From positions 11,622,743 to 11,686,742 of the forward strand of contig NC_134510.1 in assembly GCF_027942865.1 (NCBI RefSeq): a DNA stretch of 64,000 nt, read 5' to 3'. Each line of letters starts with the position of its first letter. Position 1 is the first letter of the stretch. A model generated the notes under the pieces. The model worked only from the letters and a program-made list of their open reading frames with translations, was not told the origin of the DNA and did not search any database. The position numbers and the translations under genes were made by a program. This stretch comes from Odontesthes bonariensis (taxonomy: Eukaryota; Chordata; Actinopteri; Atheriniformes; Atherinopsidae). Below are positions 3,706 to 18,297 of this stretch, in pieces.

Positions 3706-3828
3706 GTAAGAACATATACGCTGTCAATATGACTTTCGTTACTTTATAGACAAGTTGTCAATATGCTGTGCATGGATAGACTATGTTTTGATTATTTATT
3801 GGTTATTCCAACAGCTCCCAGAAGCCAG

Positions 3829-4316
3829 TGAAGTGTATGGACCCACAGGCAAAATGGGGCCTAAAGGCGCATGAGGAAATCTGAACTGAGTTCATTGAGT
3901 CCACAGACAAAATGGACGAACCAGAGTTTAATGAGTCCACAGCTGGTTAATTTCAAGACGCCTTCGCACGTCTCCGTGCAAGACACTGAGATACACTGAA
4001 AAACAAGCTCTTAAATAGTTTTACCCAAATAAGGTAGATTTGATATGGGACCGTACAGTCAGACCATATCTTTTGGCTTTACGCCTGGACCAGTGGCCTC
4101 GAATCTTCTTTAAAAGTAAGGGACTTTCTCTCCCCAAGAGAGAGTTTTTCGATTTGACCACAGGCTCTCCCGGGAAATGCATTTTCTGTAACTGAGACGG
4201 ACCTGATGACAGAAATAAAGATTTCTTTTGTTCGACTACGTCCGTTTCAGCAGCTTTCTTCATCACTCATTTTTTACACCGGTTTTTGAAGACGACCTCT
4301 CTCAGAATTTACTACA
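3829..4316 (+). repeat. 5' LTR of the ERV
   Basis: 488 bp, starting TGAAGTG and ending ACTACA. A polyadenylation signal AATAAA lies at 4214-4219. No convincing TATA box was found; an AT-rich TTAAATA near 4012 is the nearest candidate. It is directly followed by the primer-binding-site position. The 81-codon minus-strand ORF inside it is identical in both LTRs simply because the LTRs are. Confidence 0.95.
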
Positions 4317-4334
4317 TTTGGCGTCACAAACACA
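4317..4334 (+). promoter_or_regulatory. primer binding site position
   Basis: The 18 bases just inside the 5' LTR read TTTGGCGTCACAAACACA. TGG a base or two after the LTR end is the usual complement of a tRNA CCA tail. The rest does not match a tRNA I can name with confidence; only the first bases resemble the tRNA-Leu 3' end. Confidence 0.6.
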
Positions 4335-7118
4335 GAAGTCTTTGCTCCAGCATCTGGGTTCCGCCTGTCCTCAGTGGGGCTGCTGTCGTCGTGAGGCCGG
4401 CTAAGAAATAATAGGTGAGTTTGTCATCTTCTCATGGGGGCCGCTTAGCTGCACTGTGGACTGGGGGAAAACTGTTTTGCAGAAAGGGCATGCTTTTAGG
4501 GCCTGTCCGGGGTGGAGAGGTCGCCTACGGTTATCAGTGAGTGGGGAAGAATCTGTCTAAATTGTTGAGGTTGTTGTAAGTACTGAAGTTGATGAAGTGA
4601 AGTTTAACAGGCCGGAGAGAGGCTGTTAGTGAATATGTCACAAGGATTTTGAGGGACCTAAAATAGGCCCACCCTGCGTCGCCGCAATGGGATAAGCCGG
4701 TTCTAGTCGTTCGGTGGGATATGTAACTCAATAATCGTTGTTTTCGGCCAGTGGAGTTTGTTTATGGATTAAACTGCTTCGGTAAACGAGTTTTAAGTGA
4801 TACAGAGTCCAGGGGGTCACTGTGGTGGGGAATCGCGGACGCGCGCTCTCCACTGCAGGCCTTCTGAGTCACAGTGCTTTTGTTGGTTTCGTCAATAATG
4901 CATCATAACATGTGCAGTGTCAAAACGTCAGTCAGGATGTACATTTGCTGAGAGGAAACCGCAGACGCTCTTTTTGGTCTTGGAGCCAATATATGGTTTC
5001 GGTAAATTGATTAATGCGCGTTATCGCTGGGCGCGCTGAGTTGTGAAACGGGTGTCGTTGAAAGACACGTCAAGCGCTAAGAAGAAGTTGTTGTTATTTA
5101 CAGGTCGGGTGACCTGACTGTGGCATTAAGTGATCTGGAACTTTTGTCGGTAAAATGAGTTCGGGCGTGGCCCAGTGCACGCTACAATTATTAAAAATTT
5201 AAACAGCTGTCAACGTAGGGTGCGCGCACAGAGGAAAGGGGAGAGAAGAGGTGCCTTAAGGTTTTGTGTGTTGTCTGACAATGGAGTCTACATGTGTTGC
5301 GTGTGTGTCCTGTTTACATGTTATATGTTCGGCAGTGTGAGACGCTTAACTGTTGTTTGTCTGGGAAAGGGGGGACCCGCTAACCTGCACATAAAGTGCC
5401 GGGCGGCGGTGTTTGCATTCATGACAGATGAACATACACATGATTCCTGAAAATAACATGGGTGTATGAGTGATGGAGACAGGACAATAACTGTCAAGTT
5501 ATGAGTTTTTGTGGCGAATTTCGGCCGGCGCCTGGTTCGCTTTGAGATGCGCCACAAGAAACAGTGTGTCTGATAAGATCTGTCCATCTAATGAGACGAT
5601 CAGTGTGTACGAATTCAGATGTGTTTGATGAACCCATGCATGTTCCAAGCATGATACATACATTTTCTCATAAGCACATTTATGTTAAAAGAATGAGCAG
5701 CGTGTAAGGTAAAGAAAAAGAAAGTGTGGGGGAACGGTGAATGTGTGTGAGCTTGGGGCGGCCTGTGGAGGCGCGTGCACGGCAAGGCAAGAGAGGAGGA
5801 AAAAAGGAGGGGGTGCTGAGGAAGTCGGTTACACGCAGAGTGGAGTTTAGCAAAAAAAAAAAAAAAAAGCGCTGGGGTATAGATCCCAACATATATTGAA
5901 AGACATTCAGTTTTAGTTAATTAACTGTAATCAATACCAACGGAGAAAATTAAGAGATGCACAAGCTTAATATCCGAGTAAAGCACATAATTTCAACGAG
6001 CTAGATTCTTAGAATACACAGAATAGATAGAAATGGTGGGATTTAATTTTGTTTTCCATGAAGTGAATCTTAACATGTACTCTGGTGCACGGAATTAAGT
6101 GTTAAAATGGTGTTCTTGTTTTTTCTGTACCGCATCGAATGTACATGAGAGCCGAAGGAGGGCCAACACCCAAAACTCAAGACCCTCCATATAAGGCGAT
6201 AAAGGACCAACTGGATTCGTGCCATCCCGATTCAGACCCGTCTTCTATAAAAGGCCAGTGTGATTATCCATAAAGTTCTGTTAACATACACACACACACC
6301 CACACACCCACAACACCCACACACACACACACACACATCACAAGACACACCCACAACACCCACACACACACACACCCACAACACCCACACACACACACAC
6401 ACACACATCACAAGACACACCCACAACACCCACACACACACATCACAAGACACACCCACAACACCCACACACACACACACACACCCACAAGACACACCCA
6501 CGACACCCACACACACACACACACACACATCACAAGACACACCCACAACACCCACACACACACACACACACACACCCACAAGACACACCCACAACACCCA
6601 CACACACACACACACACACCCACAAGACACACCCACAACACCCACACACACACACACATCACAAGACACACCCACAACACCCACACACACACACACACAC
6701 ACACACTCACAAGACACATACACACACACACACATACACAAACACACATACTCGTACTCCAAACACTCCCACAACATAAAGACATACACCGGACTTATAC
6801 ACACACACACATTCCGGTAGTAGACACTTAATGAGAAAAACACAAGAACGGGGACATTGATATCAGATATCCGTACTATTCCATACACACATAGATAAAT
6901 TGTATAAATAAAAAGGATAACTTGGTGACAGATTGGGCGTCATATAAAATGATCTAGTCTTTGTCTTTTTATACCTTCAGTTGGTCTGCCGTATTTACAC
7001 GTTGCTTTGTACTTCTTTTGCATATTATTTGGTTTGAGTTCACAGACGTATCAGAGATATAGGTTTGCATTGTGTATTAATTGAGATATAGTGATTTTTG
7101 TAGCAAATCTTTTTCATA
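4335..7118 (+). other. 2.8 kb ERV leader without recognisable genes
   Basis: This stretch between the PBS and gag is unusually long for a simple retrovirus. It holds short ORFs without recognisable motifs, an A-run near 5852-5868, a TATAAAAGG word at 6246-6254, and a CA-rich tandem block at 6283-6818. The packaging signal and splice donor should lie here, but neither can be assigned by eye. Confidence 0.6.
6283..6818. repeat. CA-rich compound microsatellite/minisatellite in the ERV leader
   Basis: About 535 bp of (CA)n interspersed with a repeated cassette containing CACAAGACACACCCACAA, iterated several times with CACACA runs of variable length. Long ORFs on both strands here (186, 218 and 125 codons) are periodic T-H-T-H or C-V-C-V translations of the repeat and are not genes. 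Confidence 0.95.
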
Positions 7119-9239
7119 ATGCCAAAAAAGATTTCCAAAGTTTTACAGGGGACTACCCCAGTCGAGTTAGTTCAGAGGAGTAATCCTCTGGTTAAAGATA
7201 TTGATAAAGTTTCAAAGAAATGGAGCAAGCGTTGGCCAGAAATAAACCAACCCTGGCCAGGGGAGGGGACTCTTAACCCGGGAGTGATTGGGACAATGCA
7301 AGTGCTGGTGTCCTCATATAAGGCCAAACAGAAGAAAGGAAAGAAGGGGAAGAAGCGTACAGAGAAAAGGGACATGGAACTTGGAATCCTACAGCTGTTT
7401 CTGAAAGAAGGACAGAAACGTCTGAAGGCGGATTTCGATAAACAGAAGACCTTCAAAGAAACCATTGACAAGAATGCAGCAACAACAGATAAACTGAGGA
7501 TGGAGACTGACAAACCTTTCTCACACACATCACCAATACAATCTCCCCCACCGTACGAGATGGACATTCAGTACGTGGACATCTATCCTCAACTCCCAGT
7601 GATCAACCAAGAGGGCCGGTATCATATCGAAGATGATCAAGAACGGGTAATAGAAACAGGGAAGGCACAAACAACCATCACAATGTACCCCACGCCCAGG
7701 AGCAAGAAGGAAAAAACACCAAAGGACAGGAAAACAGGATCCCAGAAGACAGCGGATGGAAGAAACAGTGATCAGAGTGACACAGAGGAAGAGGTAGGAG
7801 GATACGACCCAAAGATCAAAAAGATATTGGAAAGAGCTGAAACGAAGGGATCAACACGTTCAAAGAAGCCACTCACAGTGGACCTGGACACCAGTGAACC
7901 TGAGTCTGGAGACAGTGACGACAGCTCGGACGAACGGGGTTCGCCCTACACCTTGTGGTCACCTGAAGGTCGAGAGATCCGCCGAGATTTGATAACAATC
8001 GGGTCAGAAATAAAACAATGTCGTGCGGACCTGAGCCAAGCTAACAGTCTGGAAAATCAACAACGTCTGGAAGAAAAACTTCATACATTAAAGATAACAG
8101 AAAAAGAACTGAAAAAACAAAAGACCTTCCTCAAAGACCCTAAAAGATATTACTTACGTTCAAAAGGCTCAAAGAAAATGGCCCCAGTGTTGGCCCGGGG
8201 ACAAAATCTGGAGTATAAACCTTGGCAGACAACCGATATGACAAGCATACTTGAGAAACTGCCCATCCTTCAGGATGGCGCGCATCCATGGATCTCAAAA
8301 CTAGAAGAAACTTTGGTGGGGACACAAGCGGCCCTTGGGGACATAAAGAGACTTCTGGCAAATCTCCTTGGAGTCCCAGCCATGGAAGAAATCTTTGAAA
8401 AAGCAGGTTTGCGCAGATGTGCTATTAGCACAATAAATGATGCTGATCTGTTTGCAGCAAGTCGAGGACGAATTTGGAGAGCTCTGAGAGAAACGTTCCC
8501 TACTAATGTACACCCGGACAATATTCTCATCGAGCCAATGGGAGACCAGGAAAATCCGAGAGCCTATGTGGCGAGAGCTCATCAATCTTGGAGAAATGTC
8601 ACTGGAAATGATCCTGATGTAAACCAAATGGAACAGTCAATCCTCCGAGCCAAGCTACAAGAGGGACTGCCACCCTCAGTAAGAAACAAGCTGGCTGAGG
8701 TGGTCGGACTTGGGAGTATGACAAAGAGCGTCTACACTGATTATGTAGCACACCAGGTGGAGCTACACCGGAAAAAGGAACAGGCTCAAAAACAGCAAGA
8801 TGAGGACACTATTAGGAAGCTCACACAGATACAACTCACGGAGAACAGGAGAAAGGAGAAGACACAAGCCGTGATCCTACAGGGTCAGTCTACACCACAA
8901 CAATGGGATAAACCACAACCATCGTATGACCAGACAAGATCACAGCTACCAGAAAATTCAACGACTTTTTCGGCACCCCCAGTCGTTGATCAGTCACAAA
9001 CTTGGAGAGGAAGAGGCCGTGGAAACTGGGGAAACGGAGGAAGGGGATCTTTCAATCCGGGTTTTCAACAGCCTCCAGGACCCTGTCATAATTGTGGACA
9101 GTTTGGACACTGGATTCGGGAGTGTAATAAAACCCGTGGAGGATTTCACGGTCAAGGTTACAGAGGAGGTTACAGGGGGCAACCACAGCCACCCCGGGGA
9201 CCGGTAAACCCCAACAGGGGCCCGGAGCCTGGGTTTTAG
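7119..9239 (+). CDS. gag: ERV Gag polyprotein
   Basis: 706 codons, expected to form the viral core. The N-terminal third is lysine-rich and has no glycine at position 2, so no N-myristoylation signal is evident. A long charged middle section is followed by a capsid-like region (about residues 360-560). One nucleocapsid zinc knuckle, C656-x2-C659-x4-H664-x4-C669, lies in a Gly/Arg-rich tail. The start is the first ATG of a long open frame at the end of the leader. The ORF ends in TAG 9237-9239, and the same frame continues into protease, implying readthrough. No internal stop is present, so the copy looks coding-competent here. Confidence 0.9.
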
Positions 9240-9278
9240 GGAGGCCCGGAGAACCCGAGTGGGAGGTGTCAGCTGGTA
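9237..9278 (+). promoter_or_regulatory. gag-pro UAG stop, probable readthrough site
   Basis: Gag ends TTT TAG GGA GGC, and the same frame stays open with no stop and no ATG until codon 11 of the protease ORF. A single UAG followed by G and a GC-rich downstream stretch matches the arrangement used by gammaretroviruses to make Gag-Pro-Pol by stop-codon suppression. The pseudoknot itself has not been modelled. Confidence 0.7.
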
Positions 9279-9989
9279 GTGTCAGGACCGGAGCAAGATC
9301 CAACAATAATGGTAAGAATAAATAAGCAACCATTAAGCATGATGGCGGATAGTGGAGCTGCCTTTACATGTGTTCAGTCCGAAGATGCTACACACCTCCC
9401 CATGTCTGGCAAATTTGTACGGACGATCGGGTTTGAGGGTGTCAAACAGCTGATTCCTTTCACAAAACCTGTCGAGATTAGCTATGGGACCCAAAGGACA
9501 ACCATACCCATACTAGTGTCGGAAAATACACCAATCAGTCTTTTGGGAAGAGACGCTTTATGCAGACTGAACTGTACCATACAATGTACGCCTGACGGCT
9601 GTCGGGTCGAAGTGCCCTATAAGGAGTACCAACAACTAACAGTGACAACAGAGACTGTAGCATCCTCTGTGTTTTGGATCGGAGATTTGAGTCAAGATCT
9701 AATGGAACCAACCAAAGTGTGGGAAAAGTTCATCACTGCAAACATGCCGAACACGACGACCCCCGAATACCCACCTCACTGCACACTCAAATATTTCAAA
9801 ACAGTGGCCACACCAAACCCTGATGACTGGCTGAGCCACCAGCCACAGCAAGTCCAGCTTAGCTCAAGCTGTATAATTTTGGGACCACAAGGGGCGGCTA
9901 TGAAGATCGATCGAAACAGTTATCTCAATAAAGAACATGAAGTCGAACATAGCATCCCACATGTGACTAAGGATAACAGAGGGATATGA
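9279..9989 (+). CDS. pro: ERV protease plus a linker with two H-x-T motifs
   Basis: 236 codons in the gag frame. It probably has no start of its own and is made by readthrough. The aspartic protease active site D24-S25-G26 and the C-terminal L88-L-G-R-D92 motif are clear, so the protease proper occupies roughly residues 10-115. The remaining ~120 residues are not protease. They contain H167-C-T169 after a Pro-Pro pair and H228-V-T230, a spacing reminiscent of 2H phosphoesterases. The ORF ends in TGA at 9987-9989, overlapping the open pol frame (open from 9967), which is in a different phase. Confidence 0.85.
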   Translation: MSGPEQDPTIMVRINKQPLSMMADSGAAFTCVQSEDATHLPMSGKFVRTIGFEGVKQLIPFTKPVEISYGTQRTTIPILVSENTPISLLGRDALCRLNCTIQCTPDGCRVEVPYKEYQQLTVTTETVASSVFWIGDLSQDLMEPTKVWEKFITANMPNTTTPEYPPHCTLKYFKTVATPNPDDWLSHQPQQVQLSSSCIILGPQGAAMKIDRNSYLNKEHEVEHSIPHVTKDNRGI

Positions 9990-10008
9990 ACAGAAACATG
10001 TAGGAGAA

Positions 10009-13000
10009 ATGGTGGCTGAAGCGGAGGACATCACCTTCACACCAATAAAGGAAAACGCTGTTATCTGGAGAAGTGAAGACCAACGGTTTCTAAAGATCAT
10101 GACCTCAGCTCAAGGTCTGGGACGACCACAAACGGTACAGATAACATATGAGTCTATTTGCAGTGTCCAGCCAGGTTCAGATACTTTGAGACAAGAGATG
10201 TTACGACAAGTTCCAGAGTGTTTGTGGTCACAACATAGTACTGACATTGGTTTAGTAATGTCAGCCCAACCAGTGAAAGTTGAGCTCCGACCGGGAGCTA
10301 GACCTCCATGGAAGAACCAATACCCGCTAAAAGAGGAAGCGGTTCGCGGAATTTCATCACAAATTGAAGGACTACTAACAGTAAAGGTCGTGGCAATAAC
10401 CCAAAACCCACAAAGCAACACACCTTTGCTGCCAATAATGAAACCAGATAGTTCTTACCGCATGGTACATGATCTCAGAGCCGTAAATGAAGTCGTGACA
10501 GATTTCCCAGCAGAAGTACCGGACCCACATACCTTGCTGGCCCAAATCCCTCCAGAAGCGATATATTTCACGGTGTTGGACCTGTGTGGAGCCTTCTTTA
10601 GTGTTCCTCTTAGCATTGAATCCCAGGGCTTGTTTGGGTTCACATATCAGGGACAGTATTACAAATACCTGAGGCTTCCCATGGGATTTAAACACAGTCC
10701 TCACATCTTTAACAAAGTCCTGAAAGATGACCTGGAGGGCATAGGTCAGATATTGAAGAGTGTGGTGATTCAGTATGTGGACGACATCATCATCTGCTCT
10801 CCGGACATCGAGACTTGTCACAAAGATTCAGTCAAGCTATTGCAGGTTTTGGCACAAAAAGGCCACAAAGTTTCTCAAAAGAAGCTGCAATATGTTCAGG
10901 AGCAAGTGATCTACCTGGGACAATCTATAACCAAGGGTCATCGGAGAATTTCAGACAGTCATGTGGACGCTATTCAAAAGGCACCAAAGCCTAGGACGGT
11001 CAGAGAAATGATGACGTTCCTGGGAATGGCGGGATATTCTTCATCATGGATTGAGGACTATGCCAAACTGACAGGGCCATTGAGAGTCATGATCAAGGAC
11101 ACAGGAAGTGAACACCTTCATCACCACTTAACGTGGACGCCGGACGGCTGTCTGGCATTTGAAACACTGAAGCAGAAGTTACAGGAGGCACCAGCGCTGG
11201 CATTACCTGATTACTCAAAGAACTTCGTGTTATACGTGTCAACCTCAACAGGGGGTGGATTTGCATGCGCGGTTCTCTGTCAGCCTACAGGCACAGGAAC
11301 GAGTCCACAGCCCGTTGCCTATTACTCTACTGCTTTTTCAGAAGTGGAGCTGGGACTACCATTGTGCTACAGAGCCATGGTGGGGGTGTATTTGATGTAT
11401 GAAAAAGCAGCAGCAGTTACCATGGGTTACCCGGTGACGATCCTTACCCATCACAGTTTGCGGAATCTGTTAAATCACGGAAAGTATACTTTGACCATGT
11501 CCAGATTGAGAAACTACCACAGACTCCTGGAGCAGGAGGATGTTAGTCTAGCAAGATGTACTACCGTGAACCCGGCTGAAAGTCTCCCTACTCTTGAGGA
11601 TGGGGAGCCACACGATTGTGTGAAAGAAGCAGAGAGATACTCTAAGTTGAGATCGGATCTGCAAGCCCTACCATTACCAGAAGCAGATCTGGAACTTTGG
11701 ACCGATGGATCCTGTTATCGGGTAGGCAGTGAGTTGGTAGCAGGCTATGCGATAGTGAAGGCATGCGGAACGGATTTTGTCGTTGAGAAAGCTCAGTTGA
11801 TACCGCAACCGGTATCAGCACAGTTGGCGGAGCTTATTGGCCTGACTGAAGCTTGCCTGATGGCAGAAAACAAACGGGTTACGATCTACACAGACTCGGC
11901 ATATGCTCACAATGTATGTCATTTGTTTGGTGCGGTGTGGAAGAGCCGGGGATTTAAGAAAACGGACGGTTCTCCTATACACCACCATGAACAAATAATT
12001 AAACTGTTGCATGCTATGATGAAACCCAAAGCAATAGCAATAGCGAAGTGCGCGGCCCACAAAACAGATGCGTCGAGAGTTACGCAAGGTAACACAGCGG
12101 CAGATGAGGCAGCGAAAGCAGTCACAGGGGCGCACAAAACGGGTCAGATGTTCCTGGTCACCCATGAGGTGTACCTGGAAGAAAGAATCACACTTAAAGA
12201 TGTGATCTTAATGCAGGAAGCAGCCTCTGCAATGGACAAGCAGCTGTGGACTGAGAGGGGTGCCAGTCAAGACCCTACGGGTCTTTGGAGGAACCATGAG
12301 GGTTTGATGGTGGCGCCCCCAGATTTGTTAGGTCTGCTCATTCAGGAAGCACACGGGCAAGCCCATGTTGCAAGGGGGGAAGTCAGGAGGAAGATCACAC
12401 AAGAGTACGGTTTTTGGGCACCGTACTTGCTCGAACAGGCGGATCACGTCATCGGAAGATGTGCCATTTGTTTGAAAAATAATGTGAGGAGAGGTATGAC
12501 AATTCTTCCAGGGTACATTCCGACTCCAAAAGGCCCTATGCGGGAGTTGGTCATGGATTTTGTTGACATGATAAAACCAGTGGACGGCAAAAGGTACATG
12601 TTGGTGGTAGTGGACAGGTTCTCACGATGGCCAGAGGCCTGCCCAACTAGGCAAAAAGACGCTCAATCTGTCGCTAAGTTCCTGTGTCGTGAAGTCATAC
12701 CCAGATGGGGGCTTCCAGATAGAATATCATCAGATAACGGGCGAGAATTTGTTGAGAAATCTGTAAAACTGATCCTACAGAAACTAGGAATCAAGCAACG
12801 TCTTGGAGCAGTTTATCACCCACAGAGCCAAGGCATATGTGAGAAAATGAACGGCGTGTTGAAAAACCGTCTTGTAAAAATCTGTCAACATACGGGACTG
12901 AATTGGGTGGCAGCGCTTCCACTTGCTCTAATGGCATGCCGTTCAGGCGCACTTCGCGATTTGCAAATGACACCACACGAGTTGGTGACGGGCAGACGAA

Positions 13001-13707
13001 TGCCCACGCCCTTTTTGCGAACAAACGGGAAAGGTCCAAGTTTGTCTCTGTTGGAAGATGAAATGAAGACATACGTTAAGTATATGGTTACTTTACATAG
13101 GAACATATCCACGTATGTCATTGACAGGCAAAAACAGGACCACGAGCAGGAGAAGCTTGCAGAGCAAAAGAGAGACATTTTGCAGCCAGGGGACAAAGTG
13201 TTTGTGAAGGTCTTTAGGAGAAAGTGGTTTAACGCACGCCGGGAAGGACCATTTGAAGTTGTGCGCAGCACAGGGACAGCGGTCCAAGTAAAAGGGTCTC
13301 CCACGTGGTACCACCTGTCACACTGTGTCAAGGCAGCAAAAGAAGAAGAGACTCAAACGGAAGGTACGCAAGACAAAAGGTCCAACGGAGGGAGCACGGA
13401 CAGATTCAAAACACCCGAGAATGCTCAAGATCAAGGTCCAAGAGAAGAGACTGATAATGTTGCAAACAGCTATGATCCTGCTGTACCTGTTCCTGATGAC
13501 ACCGACCGGGGCCCACCAATACAAAGATTTGGGGTCATCGATTTGCAACACGTGCCAGAGATCACGGGGGGCTCTTCTCCAGACAGCAATCCAACAAAGA
13601 TCAAAGAGAACAACAATGACGCTTCAAGAAGTGGCACAGAGTCAGCCGTACCAAGGAGGCCAAAGTCCTTCCGCAGAACGACCAAACCCGAGAGATACGG
13701 CGATTAA
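10009..13707 (+). CDS. pol: ERV Pol: reverse transcriptase, RNase H, integrase
   Basis: 1232 codons from the first ATG; the frame is open from 9967. Domains in order: RT with Y256-V-D-D259; RNase H with D566, E608, D629 and D699; integrase zinc finger H782-x3-H786 and C818-x2-C821; catalytic core D850, D909, E945 with exactly 35 residues between the last two (DD35E); and a C-terminal GPF motif starting at G1080, typical of gamma-type integrases. The last ~130 codons (13325-13707) overlap the env-position ORF in another frame. No stop interrupts it. It is offset by one base relative to pro, either a small indel in this copy or an unusual recoding site. Confidence 0.93.
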   Translation: MVAEAEDITFTPIKENAVIWRSEDQRFLKIMTSAQGLGRPQTVQITYESICSVQPGSDTLRQEMLRQVPECLWSQHSTDIGLVMSAQPVKVELRPGARPPWKNQYPLKEEAVRGISSQIEGLLTVKVVAITQNPQSNTPLLPIMKPDSSYRMVHDLRAVNEVVTDFPAEVPDPHTLLAQIPPEAIYFTVLDLCGAFFSVPLSIESQGLFGFTYQGQYYKYLRLPMGFKHSPHIFNKVLKDDLEGIGQILKSVVIQYVDDIIICSPDIETCHKDSVKLLQVLAQKGHKVSQKKLQYVQEQVIYLGQSITKGHRRISDSHVDAIQKAPKPRTVREMMTFLGMAGYSSSWIEDYAKLTGPLRVMIKDTGSEHLHHHLTWTPDGCLAFETLKQKLQEAPALALPDYSKNFVLYVSTSTGGGFACAVLCQPTGTGTSPQPVAYYSTAFSEVELGLPLCYRAMVGVYLMYEKAAAVTMGYPVTILTHHSLRNLLNHGKYTLTMSRLRNYHRLLEQEDVSLARCTTVNPAESLPTLEDGEPHDCVKEAERYSKLRSDLQALPLPEADLELWTDGSCYRVGSELVAGYAIVKACGTDFVVEKAQLIPQPVSAQLAELIGLTEACLMAENKRVTIYTDSAYAHNVCHLFGAVWKSRGFKKTDGSPIHHHEQIIKLLHAMMKPKAIAIAKCAAHKTDASRVTQGNTAADEAAKAVTGAHKTGQMFLVTHEVYLEERITLKDVILMQEAASAMDKQLWTERGASQDPTGLWRNHEGLMVAPPDLLGLLIQEAHGQAHVARGEVRRKITQEYGFWAPYLLEQADHVIGRCAICLKNNVRRGMTILPGYIPTPKGPMRELVMDFVDMIKPVDGKRYMLVVVDRFSRWPEACPTRQKDAQSVAKFLCREVIPRWGLPDRISSDNGREFVEKSVKLILQKLGIKQRLGAVYHPQSQGICEKMNGVLKNRLVKICQHTGLNWVAALPLALMACRSGALRDLQMTPHELVTGRRMPTPFLRTNGKGPSLSLLEDEMKTYVKYMVTLHRNISTYVIDRQKQDHEQEKLAEQKRDILQPGDKVFVKVFRRKWFNARREGPFEVVRSTGTAVQVKGSPTWYHLSHCVKAAKEEETQTEGTQDKRSNGGSTDRFKTPENAQDQGPREETDNVANSYDPAVPVPDDTDRGPPIQRFGVIDLQHVPEITGGSSPDSNPTKIKENNNDASRSGTESAVPRRPKSFRRTTKPERYGD

Positions 13708-14827
13708 GGTGATAGTGTCCGAAGGTCAGTCGGCCCTGCTTCCATGCGAGTGCAAAGTGATGGACGTGGGAGGACCCCATCTACCACAGTGGAAAGACAA
13801 CTACGGAAAACTGATAACCTACTCAAATGTCACCATCAACGCACCACCAAAGTATGTACTGGTTAATGAGGCAAGGAGGGTGAAACAAGAAGGAGACTGT
13901 AGTCTTTTTGTGCGACATGTTCAAAAAAGGGATCAAGGAATGTATACGTGTATATATTTTGGGTCCCCAACCCAGGGGAAAGAAGGGCGTAATAGAGCTG
14001 AGCCTGAAGTCAAATATGTGAGGTTAAGGTTAAGAAATGGAGGGGCGGAAACAAAGACGATGATTCCTGAAGCAATGCCCGTCTCAACACAACTCCCTCC
14101 ACTCGTACACACGTCCAAAGGGGAAATAACAGAACCGGCAAACACTGGTATTGCTCGGGGGACTGTAGCAAAAATTAACACCGCCTCCAATAACAATAAT
14201 AGGATAGGGAATACCATAGCAAAATCTGCTCCGCCAACAAGCGTGGTGGAGAAAAAGGGGGTACCATCGGACACCATTCACCACGTCAATAGGAAATTAG
14301 ACAAAGAGACACTAGATTTTGAACAGCAAGAAAATGACGCAGCTGCGGACGAACAGACAACTTATAGAAGAGAAAATAAATGGAGGGCGTTTGGGTTTGA
14401 TTCTTCGGTATTGCAGATTACTGACCCATGGGCTAATAAGAACATGTGGTTCCAACAACTGACTCATTCCGTACGGCGAGCTACACTTGATAACTGCCCC
14501 TGCTTTGTAAAGGTTCCAGCACCAAACACATGGCCGTCAATTTTGGAGACAATACCTGAGCCACTTAGTCCCTTGTGTCAGGAGTATGCGTTATCTTGGT
14601 TGTTATATAATCAACGAGCACCAACGGATAGGTGGTTGGCTCTGTCCAAACATCTATTTACACCCCAAAAGGAATGTATATGGTTAAGTGATTTGCCATA
14701 TCTTAATTTACAAGATCAACAGGAGAGGGGGGCAGCAGCAAGGCCTGATCCAATGGAAGTAGTGGCCGTTAAGGCCAAAGCTTGTTTTTGTTCAAACGAC
14801 ACTCACTCGCTGAGGGGATGTTCGTAG
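13325..14827 (+). CDS. env: env-position ORF: signal peptide, Ig V-set-like domain and SU-like region
   Basis: 500 codons from the first ATG, overlapping pol by 383 nt. The functional start is more likely M33 or M45, because residues 44-58 are a hydrophobic signal-peptide core. Residues ~127-215 look like an immunoglobulin V-set domain: C141 (in LLPCEC), W156, then D203-x-G-x-Y-x-C209, with 67 residues between the cysteines. A Ser/Thr/Asn-rich linker follows. From ~365 to the end the sequence resembles a fish ERV surface subunit (NMW motif, C391-P-C393, several Cys). N168-V-T is a possible glycosylation site. It stops at TAG 14825-14827 with no fusion peptide, CX6CC or membrane anchor. The Ig call is from motif reading only. 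The alternative is an SU N-domain that mimics an Ig fold. Confidence 0.75.
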   Translation: MSRQQKKKRLKRKVRKTKGPTEGARTDSKHPRMLKIKVQEKRLIMLQTAMILLYLFLMTPTGAHQYKDLGSSICNTCQRSRGALLQTAIQQRSKRTTMTLQEVAQSQPYQGGQSPSAERPNPRDTAIKVIVSEGQSALLPCECKVMDVGGPHLPQWKDNYGKLITYSNVTINAPPKYVLVNEARRVKQEGDCSLFVRHVQKRDQGMYTCIYFGSPTQGKEGRNRAEPEVKYVRLRLRNGGAETKTMIPEAMPVSTQLPPLVHTSKGEITEPANTGIARGTVAKINTASNNNNRIGNTIAKSAPPTSVVEKKGVPSDTIHHVNRKLDKETLDFEQQENDAAADEQTTYRRENKWRAFGFDSSVLQITDPWANKNMWFQQLTHSVRRATLDNCPCFVKVPAPNTWPSILETIPEPLSPLCQEYALSWLLYNQRAPTDRWLALSKHLFTPQKECIWLSDLPYLNLQDQQERGAAARPDPMEVVAVKAKACFCSNDTHSLRGCS

Positions 14828-15018
14828 GAATATCAGAGTGCGATAGCTATAAGATGCAAGTCAGAAGAGAAACAAACAACAAGATTGAAGGCCAGACAAG
14901 GGTAACTTTCCATGCCCCGGATAACTCAGGACGGGATGATGAAAACGGACTGTGGGACCCTGGACAGGAGAATACGATAAAGAAAAATGGACGTTGGATA
15001 ACAAAAGATGGAAACTAA
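14828..15018 (+). pseudogene. probable out-of-frame continuation of the SU-like region
   Basis: A different frame is open across the env stop (from ATG 14782) and ends at 15016-15018. Its beginning overlaps the cysteine-rich end of the env-position ORF. Downstream it has one further Cys and polar sequence compatible with SU. This suggests that either a frameshift or a natural stop ends the protein at 14827. The joined product is not written out here. Confidence 0.4.
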
Positions 15019-15829
15019 GCTACACGGCTACTCCACTGCAAATGCATTGATATTTTTCAGTAGTACTAGCTTGTTTAAACTCTAGAATTGTGTGGATTGA
15101 GTTATAATCATGAAAATGTAATCGTTGCTGTTATAATCTTGGTTGCTGTTATTAACCATTTCAATCTGCATTGTATGCCATAATGGAGTGTGAACTTATA
15201 TGTTACTTGTGATATTGTTGTCATTATGCTGTGATATAGCCTATTCTCTGTAATACAGTAGGAGCCACGCTTTGTGGACATAATAGGACGAAATTGGACC
15301 AAATTGAACATAAAGGTCCTGAAATTAGACGTTAAGGGTAAAGGTAATTGTTAATACGAAACAGGGATTGCTTGCTTAGATTGGCACCAGAGTGACATTC
15401 CCTTAGGTCATCCAATCTTTTTCCCCACTTTTTAGGAAGGGTGGTTTTTTATCGACTGGATGACAACTGACCTGCAGGTTCCCCACAGAGACACACAGAT
15501 TGTATGGGAGAGCAGGACATGAATGTTTAGTCATGTCAGGAGACTGATGAGCTGTGTGACTGGAGGGAGACCGGTAGGCTGGTTTACTGTAGCCGAATTT
15601 GGACTAATTATATCATAGATTTAACTTACCTAGTCTAAAATAGTTAAAATAATGTGCGCATAGACACGTAAATAGGAGTTGAACTAATCAGTTGACTCAG
15701 AAATTGAGGGCTTATGATATATTAAGAGATTGGGCAATCAATAATGTCGAACAAGTGAGGTCTTTGTTGATGCCGATTCATGGGTTTGATCATGTACCAT
15801 GACAAATATTGTAGAGGCCATTTTGTGTT
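15019..15829 (+). other. ERV 3' region where a TM subunit would be expected; none recognised
   Basis: AT-rich and stop-dense in all plus frames. The only coding-like trace is a 34-codon open stretch at 15079-15183 with a ~12-residue hydrophobic run (VIVAVIILVAVI), which might be the remnant of a membrane anchor. No fusion peptide, immunosuppressive-type segment or CX6CC motif was seen. Confidence 0.5.
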
Positions 15830-15860
15830 TCGGGACTATAAGTAGTCCCGAAGGGGGGAA
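15830..15860 (+). promoter_or_regulatory. hairpin plus polypurine tract before the 3' LTR
   Basis: TCGGGACTA (15830-15838) and TAGTCCCGA (15843-15851) form a perfect 9-bp stem with a 4-nt loop. The polypurine tract AAGGGGGGAA (15851-15860) abuts the 3' LTR, as expected for the plus-strand primer. The hairpin overlaps the first base of the tract. Confidence 0.8.
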
Positions 15861-16348
15861 TGAAGTGTATGGACCCACAGGCAAAATGGGGCCTAAAGGC
15901 ACATGAGGAAATCTGAACTGAGTTCATTGAGTCCACAGACAAAATGGACGAACCAGAGTTTAATGAGTCCACAGCTGGTTAATTTCAAGACGCCTTCGCA
16001 CGTCTCCGTGCAAGACACTGAGATACACTGAAAAACAAGCTCTTAAATAGTTTTACCCAAATAAGGTAGATTTGATATGGGACCGTACAGTCAGACCATA
16101 TCTTTTGGCTTTACGCCTGGACCAGTGGCCTCGAATCTTCTTTAAAAGTAAGGGACTTTCTCTCCCCAAGAGAGAGTTTTTCGATTTGACCACAGGCTCT
16201 CCCGGGAAATGCATTTTCTGTAACTGAGACGGACCTGATGACAGAAATAAAGATTTCTTTTGTTCGACTACGTCCGTTTCAGCAGCTTTCTTCATCACTC
16301 ATTTTTTACACCGGTTTTTGAAGACGACCTCTCTCAGAATTTACTACA
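15861..16348 (+). repeat. 3' LTR of the ERV
   Basis: 488 bp, identical to the 5' LTR except for A at 15901 where the 5' LTR has G (3869), as far as I can compare by eye. The poly(A) signal AATAAA is at 16246-16251. It is followed by the second copy of the CCAG target duplication at 16349-16352. Confidence 0.95.
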
Positions 16349-16572
16349 CCAGCTTCTGATCCAGGATGAGGACGTCTGACAACTCCCGCAGACCCTGCAG
16401 GGACCGGAGTAATGCGAAGAATGCCTAGAGAGTCTGCGGATTCCAAACGGCGGCGTTTAGGCTTATTGTGTATATTGTAGGCTACAGCATTGTGTGTGTA
16501 TATAGTTTTCAATTCTTTATTATCAATATGGTTCTTATTACAATGTAAGCTATGTACATTGTGTGGTGTGGC

Positions 16573-16912: not shown

Positions 16913-17399
16913 CCCGCCGCGAGTCGGGTTCGTTTCCGACGATTTTCTCGCTCAACAAACTTAAAGTTTGTCTGCCTGCAAGCGCCCAGGTGCGTCCGAA
17001 AATTAGGCAAATTCGCGGATGTTCACTGCCGTCCACAGTGACACAAATCCCTCTTTTCGTGCAGTGATGCCTACTATTTGTTTGCCTCAGGAGCCCTGTT
17101 AAACAACAGCCAAGACACTTGTTGCATGAGAATCTTCTGACCACAGCTCAACAAGCTGTGTTGTCACAACCTTCTACAGTGCTTTGGGCAGGACAGAATC
17201 ATTAGCAAAAGGAACATTGTTGATTATAAGGTCTTGGTTTGCACTTAACACCCTAGTAAACGGGAAAGGGCTTTTGACCGAAGCAACCTGGCCTCATGTT
17301 AGGCTATTTGAAGGGGGCTATTGACATTTAGGCCGAAGATGGGTGAGAGTATCAAAACAATCATCACTTGGTGGCAGGCAGCTGATAAAAGACCGAGCT

Positions 17400-17471
17400 C
17401 TCCCCGTCGGAGAATCGAACCCCGATCTTCCGCGTGACAGGTAGTGATACTGTCCATTATACTAACGAGGA
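17400..17471 (-). tRNA. tRNA-Asp (anticodon GTC)
   Basis: A 72-nt cloverleaf with 5' end TCCTCGT, anticodon GTC and B-box GGTTCGATTCT. It is divergent from the tRNA-Leu at 17722. The acceptor pairs well, better than in the 825-896 copy. Confidence 0.9.
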
Positions 17472-17721
17472 ATTTCTTTGTGACTGACACAGTCGTCAGA
17501 TGAAAAGACAACTATCGCCAAGGAGTGAAATAAGATTTTCGTGTCCCGTTTCAAGGTGCAGGAAAATTGCTATCACAGTCCCATCACTCAGAAGGAGAGT
17601 CTTCCATGAAGCTTCATGCCTCGTCAATATTCCCCTTCAACACGAACACAACGCAGACCCACATATTCGCTGGAATGATGCCTGGGCCCGCCGACAGTGT
17701 CGTCAAATATACCTTTTAGTA

Positions 17722-17804
17722 GTCAGGATGGCCGAGCGGTCTAAGGCGCTGCGTTCAGGTCGCAGTCTCCCCTGGAGGCGTGGGTTCCAATCCCACTTCT
17801 GACA
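17722..17804 (+). tRNA. tRNA-Leu (anticodon CAG)
   Basis: An 83-nt gene. The anticodon loop TTCAGGT gives CAG, unlike the AAG copies at the left edge of the window. The T-loop reads TTCCAAT where the other copies have TTCAAAT. A TTTT run about 25 nt downstream can terminate transcription. Confidence 0.9.
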
Positions 17805-18297
17805 TTGCAGACTTCTCCTAGAGGACCATTTTCTCTGGCAAGGCAAATCAAGTTTACTCCTTGCTTAGCAATACCATGTCGTATTGCTATTCTGCCACTG
17901 CATCATCTAGTTTAAAGATTATTGTGGCCGCTTTACCTCCGAAGAGTTCTTGCTTCCAAATGCTATGCCTACTATTTGTTTGCCTCAGGAGCCCTGTTAA
18001 ACAACAGCCAAGACACTTGTTGCATGAGAATCTTCTGACCACAGCTCAACAAGCTGTGTTGTCACAACCTTCTACAGTGCTTTGGGCAGGACAGAATCAT
18101 TAGCAAAAGGAACATTGTTGATTATAAGGTCTTGGTTTGCACTTAACACCATAGTAAATGGGAAAGGGCTTTTGACCGAAGCAACCTGGCCTCATGTTAG
18201 GCTATTTGAAGGGGGCTATTGACATTTAGGCCGAAGATGGGTGAGATTATCAAAACAATTATCACTTGGTGGCAGGCAGCTGATAAAAGACCAAGCT

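Follow-up and report, generated by a model that had tools for sequence, protein, structure and literature searches.

An immunoglobulin V-set domain at the N-terminus of the envelope protein in a clade of teleost class I endogenous retroviruses

The DNA analysed here is a 64,000-nucleotide window of contig NC_134510.1 from Odontesthes bonariensis, and all positions are those within this window. It contains one provirus (3829-16348, bounded by the 4-base duplication CCAG), a class I endogenous retrovirus (ERV) whose envelope (Env) frame carries an immunoglobulin (Ig) V-set domain. The env open reading frame (ORF), as it stands, runs from its first ATG at 13421 to 14827 on the forward strand, as do all the proviral features named below, and the frame itself begins within the end of pol (residue 1 of the env numbering is at 13325). 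A hydrophobic leader or signal segment (13451..13501; Kyte-Doolittle peak 2.11, with a helix at residues 35-57 in the predicted model) is followed by a furin-like RSKR (13598..13609), a four-cysteine V-set domain (13694..14047), a linker or stalk of low-complexity composition (14048..14362), a dibasic RR site at the start of the surface subunit (SU; 14366..14371) and an SU core that extends to the ORF end (14369..14824). By eye only, RxxR-like sites lie ahead of the V-set in several relatives as well, and serine plus threonine make up 17% of the linker in the window copy compared to 15-32% in 14 relatives. The SU core was located by tblastn with seven relatives as queries, which also gave a short further SU match in another frame and no match to the transmembrane subunit (TM) in the window copy. 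The env of this copy is defective, with its frame broken inside SU; because TM is missing and SU incomplete, it cannot itself drive entry, and a secreted V-set-SU fragment is the most that could be made from it.

An earlier sequence-only reading of this DNA had proposed a V-set-like domain at 13703..13975, starting where pol ends and lying between a signal-peptide-like segment and an SU-like region, and most of this description held. Pol stops at 13707, the leader and the SU core are where they were expected, and the signature can be read off as described: C141 in an LPC context, W156, and C209 at the end of DQGMYTC, where 67 residues separate C209 from C141. The B-strand Cys, the C-strand Trp and the DxGxYxC F strand are thus all present (columns in alignment A3). 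The V-set is real over the proposed interval, but the fold runs on beyond 13975, as structural matches cover approximately residues 124-241 (13694-14047), last strand included. The Pfam V-set model scored 28.7 bits on the whole ORF (cut-off 26, E=1.5e-6) and 31.7 bits on 13703-13975 alone, and Foldseek and VIA-align 2 matches of the predicted model gave the beta-sandwich of a V-set, with families absent from the match lists not counted as excluded. When a profile was built from the V-sets of 13 relatives, leaving out the window row, it picked out the window ORF (E=1.1e-23) and no other of 1,347 six-frame stretches of at least 30 residues, which excludes chance. A chance Cys/Trp pattern in an ordinary SU, which has only the shortness of the motif in its favor, was therefore rejected by the Pfam, profile and structural matches and keeps next to no probability. 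Two additional conserved cysteines are found in the window domain, in LPCxC and DCSL. Across 14 V-sets in alignment A3 there is no variation in the Trp, in both Cys of the B strand or in the D.G..C columns, and almost none in the E-strand Cys and the Tyr; by eye the E-strand Cys is present in 24 of 26 full rows, which had been preselected by LPCxC and the F-strand pattern. The segment 13694-14047 is a genuine Ig V-set at the Env N-terminus, and the element belongs to a clade of teleost class I ERVs that share it.

The place of the domain in Env was determined by comparison with ordinary Envs, namely four V-set-free relatives (P0027-P0030) and five Env frames from the O. bonariensis genome. When the profile of the V-set clade was compared with that of the ordinary Envs using hhalign, residues 335-787 of the relative P0003 were aligned (probability 100, E=9e-91), which is the region from the dibasic site at the SU start to past the membrane anchor; the leader, V-set and linker were left unaligned. 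The five frames matched Pfam TLV_coat and no Pfam Ig model, and the V-set profile had no match in 28 ORFs (at least 150 residues) of 12 ordinary Env loci in the same genome (L051-L062). These ordinary families have the SU/TM framework in common with the V-set clade, but their SU directly follows the leader with no V-set match, whereas the V-set and linker lie between the two in the V-set clade. The V-set and linker are therefore an insertion between leader and SU: the V-set has been added near the N-terminus of an Env that keeps its other parts, and it does not replace any of them.

Envelopes of the same build were found in other fishes. A protein search with the window ORF returned 11 relatives, and one with the SU/TM part of P0003 returned 26, P0003 included, of which 17 have the V-set F-strand motif; the other rows are four gene models that start downstream of the V-set, one fused pol-env model and the V-set-free P0027-P0030. 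Among 30 relatives scanned with Pfam, the V-set model was above cut-off in 7, below it in 11 and without a match in 12. The named V-set rows represent six orders (Scomber, Colossoma, Takifugu, Syngnathus, Cyclopterus and Hippoglossus), though the Takifugu row is weak and by eye has lost the first Cys. A collection of viral contigs yielded no relative, either with the V-set alone or with the V-set alignment as query. In the SU/TM tree the four V-set-free rows separate from the other 25 (86/81), with the bootstrap unsettled, long branches among those four and 4 of the 25 rows stopping short of the V-set region. The sequence-only reading had assigned the domain to a young ERV, and this was borne out for the element itself; however, the fusion is old and clade-wide and not special to a young element. 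Because same-built envelopes occur in several other fishes, the V-set looks like an old, exchangeable extra head.

The apparent exchangeability of the head is seen when V-sets and linkers are compared separately. In a V-set tree of 26 rows, 17 form an A-type group (99/100) and the others, which include the B-types, fall outside. P0032 (A), which ends in the linker, and P0014 (B) are identical at 44/102 positions of the V-set and 102/111 of the following linker; the values for P0032 and P0035 are 42/102 and 104/111. P0011 (A) and P0039 (B) share 51/106 V-set positions and 90/105 positions after the V-set, SU start included. The V-sets of the B-types P0014 and P0035 are identical at 100/107 positions, and the SU/TM tree joins P0014 (B) with P0011 (A) (99/100). 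One Env relative, P0022 (1001 aa; Pfam V-set 41.6 bits), has two tandem V-sets, one inside the A-type group and the other outside, and P0043 by eye has a B-like start and an A-like end. At least two V-set types thus precede nearly identical linkers, once in tandem. This mix arose either from an ancestral tandem that lost one or the other domain or from head swapping, and the head is therefore a cassette under both. Median identity over 12 rows was 0.36 for the V-set, 0.21 for the linker and 0.61 for SU, and for TM it was 0.83 over 11 rows.

The core behind the head differs from a gamma-type Env in other respects. No CXXC was found by pattern within the first 265 SU residues of any of 33 rows (30 from the V-set clade plus 3 that are V-set-free, several ending inside SU). 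In 19 V-set-clade rows TM has CX9C instead of CX6CC, with CX9CC in one (P0023). The V-set-free P0027, P0028 and P0030 share CX9C, so this change probably preceded the V-set. With gamma-type Envs, as reviewed in PMC9967133, the V-set clade shares homologous TM and SU, a variable N-terminal module, a linker and a conserved C-terminal SU part; the clade differs in its added V-set head, its CX9C and the CXXC that was not found. The same review anticipates that novel folds will turn up in the N-terminal domain of SU. One tentative extension is that captured V-set heads of two types, alone or in tandem, are interchangeable and have been shuffled by recombination on a core that does without the usual motifs for a covalent SU-TM bond.

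Copies in the O. bonariensis genome (945 Mb) were used to ask how the domain has been maintained. A single-sequence search gave 56 V-set matches at E<=1e-3, some loci counted twice, and there were 90 SU/TM matches, including pieces and distant Envs. The 40 V-set matches that were fetched and inspected were all Env copies or remnants; the TM region was matched in 7 and a frame of more than 400 residues was open from the V-set on in 10. Among these copies (L011-L050), many of the 33 without a TM match end near a common point after SU, yet several have long open V-set-SU frames; these copies are possibly a TM-less sublineage that still amplified. One copy, L048 (G000 C27:26090595-26093145), is a diverged remnant of a V-set Env, with 42% identity; it has no SU/TM match and by eye it, too, starts right after a pol end. 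Codons were counted in the window and the 40 copies, with three skipped (L046, L048 and L049) and 13 excluded for stops, indels, frame breaks or identity below 80%, leaving 25 of which 21 were distinct. Removal of L034, L037 and L044, whose frame-shifted tails inflate the V-set ratio, left 18 distinct full-length frames, window included. The ratio of nonsynonymous to synonymous differences per site (pN/pS) in these was 1.50, 0.70, 0.50 and 0.40 in bins of rising pS and 0.55 overall, with 0.50 at pS 0.05-0.1 and 0.40 at pS 0.1-0.15 (10 pairs). For SU, 32 rows were filled to 85% or more and 29 of them were distinct; these gave 1.19, 0.40, 0.25, 0.21 and, from 4 pairs, 0.16. Purifying selection appears to act on both V-set and SU, though less strongly on the V-set. 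A claim that the V-set evolves under positive selection was considered and dropped, as pN/pS without the frame-shifted rows shows purifying selection. The idea that the V-set serves no function and is carried as a tolerated passenger would fit its weaker constraint relative to SU, but its retention in several fish orders, the invariant Cys, Trp and D.G..C columns and the drop of pN/pS to 0.40 make this highly improbable.

The sequence-only reading had also proposed capture of a host Ig gene, and this is still the likeliest origin of the V-set, although the donor has not come to light. In a search of 5.8 billion proteins with the V-set alignment, where only proteins of approximately 0.55-1.75 times the query length were candidates, the nearest non-Env protein was at E=0.57, and the better matches were, as far as read, Envs or pieces of Envs; no donor gene was among the 40 of 56 own-genome matches inspected. 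Against cellular proteins the V-set profile matched JAML at 2e-10, summed over two domains, and TIM-3 at 4e-7. Cellular V-sets of the TIM, JAML and SIRP type share the fold and match in sequence or structure, but identity in the structural lists is approximately 20-24%, and the cysteine pair in LPCxC and DCSL is particular to the Env type. TIMs combine an IgV domain, which has six cysteines and a phosphatidylserine site, with a mucin stalk. TIM-3 and TIM-4 are among the structural and profile matches, and by eye the cysteine layout of the Env V-set differs from that of TIM. To our knowledge, no known gamma-type receptor-binding domain has a traceable cellular origin. The MLV (murine leukemia virus) receptor-binding domain is Ig-like. 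The V-set could be an ancestral retroviral receptor-binding fold that resembles a V-set without coming from a host gene, a view to which the missing donor and the beta-strand arrangement described for the MLV domain in the review (PMC9967133) would lend weight. It is very unlikely given the sequence-level matches to cellular V-sets (Pfam 1.5e-6, JAML 2e-10 and TIM-3 4e-7), the C-W-DxGxYxC signature and the lack of a counterpart segment in ordinary Envs. An ordinary SU domain merely resembling Ig was judged unlikely on the same profile matches and ordinary Envs.

Among the best-ranked papers of the open literature none reported a fish retroviral Env with a V-set, subscription papers and preprints being mostly outside the search, and term searches of the accessible text of two fish ERV papers (PMC8672886, PMC4977317) showed no Ig domain in Env. 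Zebrafish Env38 was considered as a precedent and set aside, as the Ig-like passage in the accessible text concerns CD4 domains and not Env. The closest likeness is CrocERV31, which according to its report has a host Ig-superfamily coding sequence at the env position: nectin3, approximately 76% identical to a known host gene and under purifying selection, in place of env (PMC4299795). In contrast, the fish Env has a single V-set fused in frame to an SU/TM Env, and the fusion is old and has no donor found. Large DNA viruses also encode Ig-fold proteins (poxvirus haemagglutinin, iridovirus, herpesvirus), but these are DNA-virus genes and not heads of a retroviral fusion protein. The best viral structure match of model md02527dabbac was F-env of Chelonid alphaherpesvirus 5 (559 columns, Foldseek), a turtle herpesvirus gene that, judging by its name, may descend from a retroviral Env.

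Taken as a whole, the data moderately favor a model in which an old, host-Ig-derived V-set tethered to SU would serve as an exchangeable attachment or receptor-binding head on a conserved fusion machine, of which it would be the variable outer part. The leader would direct the Env protein to the endoplasmic reticulum and might be removed at the RSKR-like site, and the V-set head would stay attached to SU, since the former leader/SU site keeps its dibasic residues but has a non-basic P4 in 29 of 30 rows. The head would then bind a surface partner, and membrane fusion would be the task of the conserved SU/TM core. We infer this mechanism as a whole from the layout, and the role in receptor binding or immune interaction suggested by the sequence-only reading is putative. 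The chief competing explanation is that the V-set and stalk are released as a soluble Ig protein, an immune decoy or superinfection blocker and not an entry head, either through cleavage at the dibasic site that precedes SU or through secretion from TM-less copies. The dibasic site is kept in all 30 V-set-clade rows whose SU start could be located, RSKR lies ahead of the V-set in the window copy, TM was matched in only 7 of 40 copies yet the long frame is open in 10, and other fish viruses (iridoviruses and salmon gill poxvirus) have predicted Ig-fold proteins. However, P4 is basic in only 1 of those 30 rows, so furin is expected to cut poorly, and TM-less copies are also expected from ordinary ERV decay; soluble release is thus considered unlikely, though it is the alternative to be taken most seriously.

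Several observations weigh against the model of a tethered head. By eye, P0027, P0028 and P0030 have a canonical RKKR or RRKR at the site homologous to the dibasic site, and proteolytic release of the head is therefore possible. The ordinary SU region is retained, and receptor binding could reside there with the V-set as an accessory. Constraint on the V-set (0.50, 0.40) is weaker than on SU (0.25, 0.21), which is compatible with a variable head and with partial relaxation alike. Neither the protein collection nor the 40 inspected matches of the own genome yielded a donor gene, and the bootstraps of both trees are unsettled, with long branches in several rows. If the heads are indeed interchangeable, a fish retrovirus lineage could change its binding partner by swapping a host-like domain. 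A plain host-type V-set head of two exchangeable types across teleosts would make the origin of viral receptor-binding heads directly testable, and natural Envs that have the head and others that lack it occur together in one genome.

The remainder of the provirus is consistent with its class I assignment. The 488-bp 5' long terminal repeat (LTR; 3829..4316, TG...CA) and the 3' LTR (15861..16348) form a repeat pair at a spacing of 12032, flanked by CCAG at 3825-3828 and 16349-16352. They differ at 1 of 488 positions; as neutral rates in fish are approximately 3e-9 to 1e-8 per site and year, the insertion is roughly 0.1-0.35 million years old. Gag (7119..9239; ORF, PF00098) has a CCHC knuckle and ends in TAG, a protease region (9279..9989; PF00077) follows in the gag frame by frame comparison, and pol (10009..13707) encodes reverse transcriptase (RT), RNase H and integrase by Pfam models that include MLVIN_C. 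The closest PDB chains to the RT piece were RT/RNase H p80 (1.6e-81), which we take to be of MLV/XMRV (xenotropic MLV-related virus) type, followed by chains at approximately 1e-40 that are presumably foamy-virus pol, and a chain named MMLV reverse transcriptase matched at 9.5e-38. The p80-type RT, MLVIN_C and the 4-bp CCAG duplication all indicate a class I (gamma/epsilon-like) ERV. At 9237-9260 the gag TAG is followed by the open, in-frame protease region, with pol in a different frame, a layout comparable to that of MLV, where the gag stop is read through. Between the 5' LTR and gag lie 2.8 kb (4317-7118) with a tandem repeat near 6272-6780, and just downstream of the provirus (17067-18264) there is a pair of direct repeats, each 300 bases or longer, that share 99% identity and start 898 bases apart.
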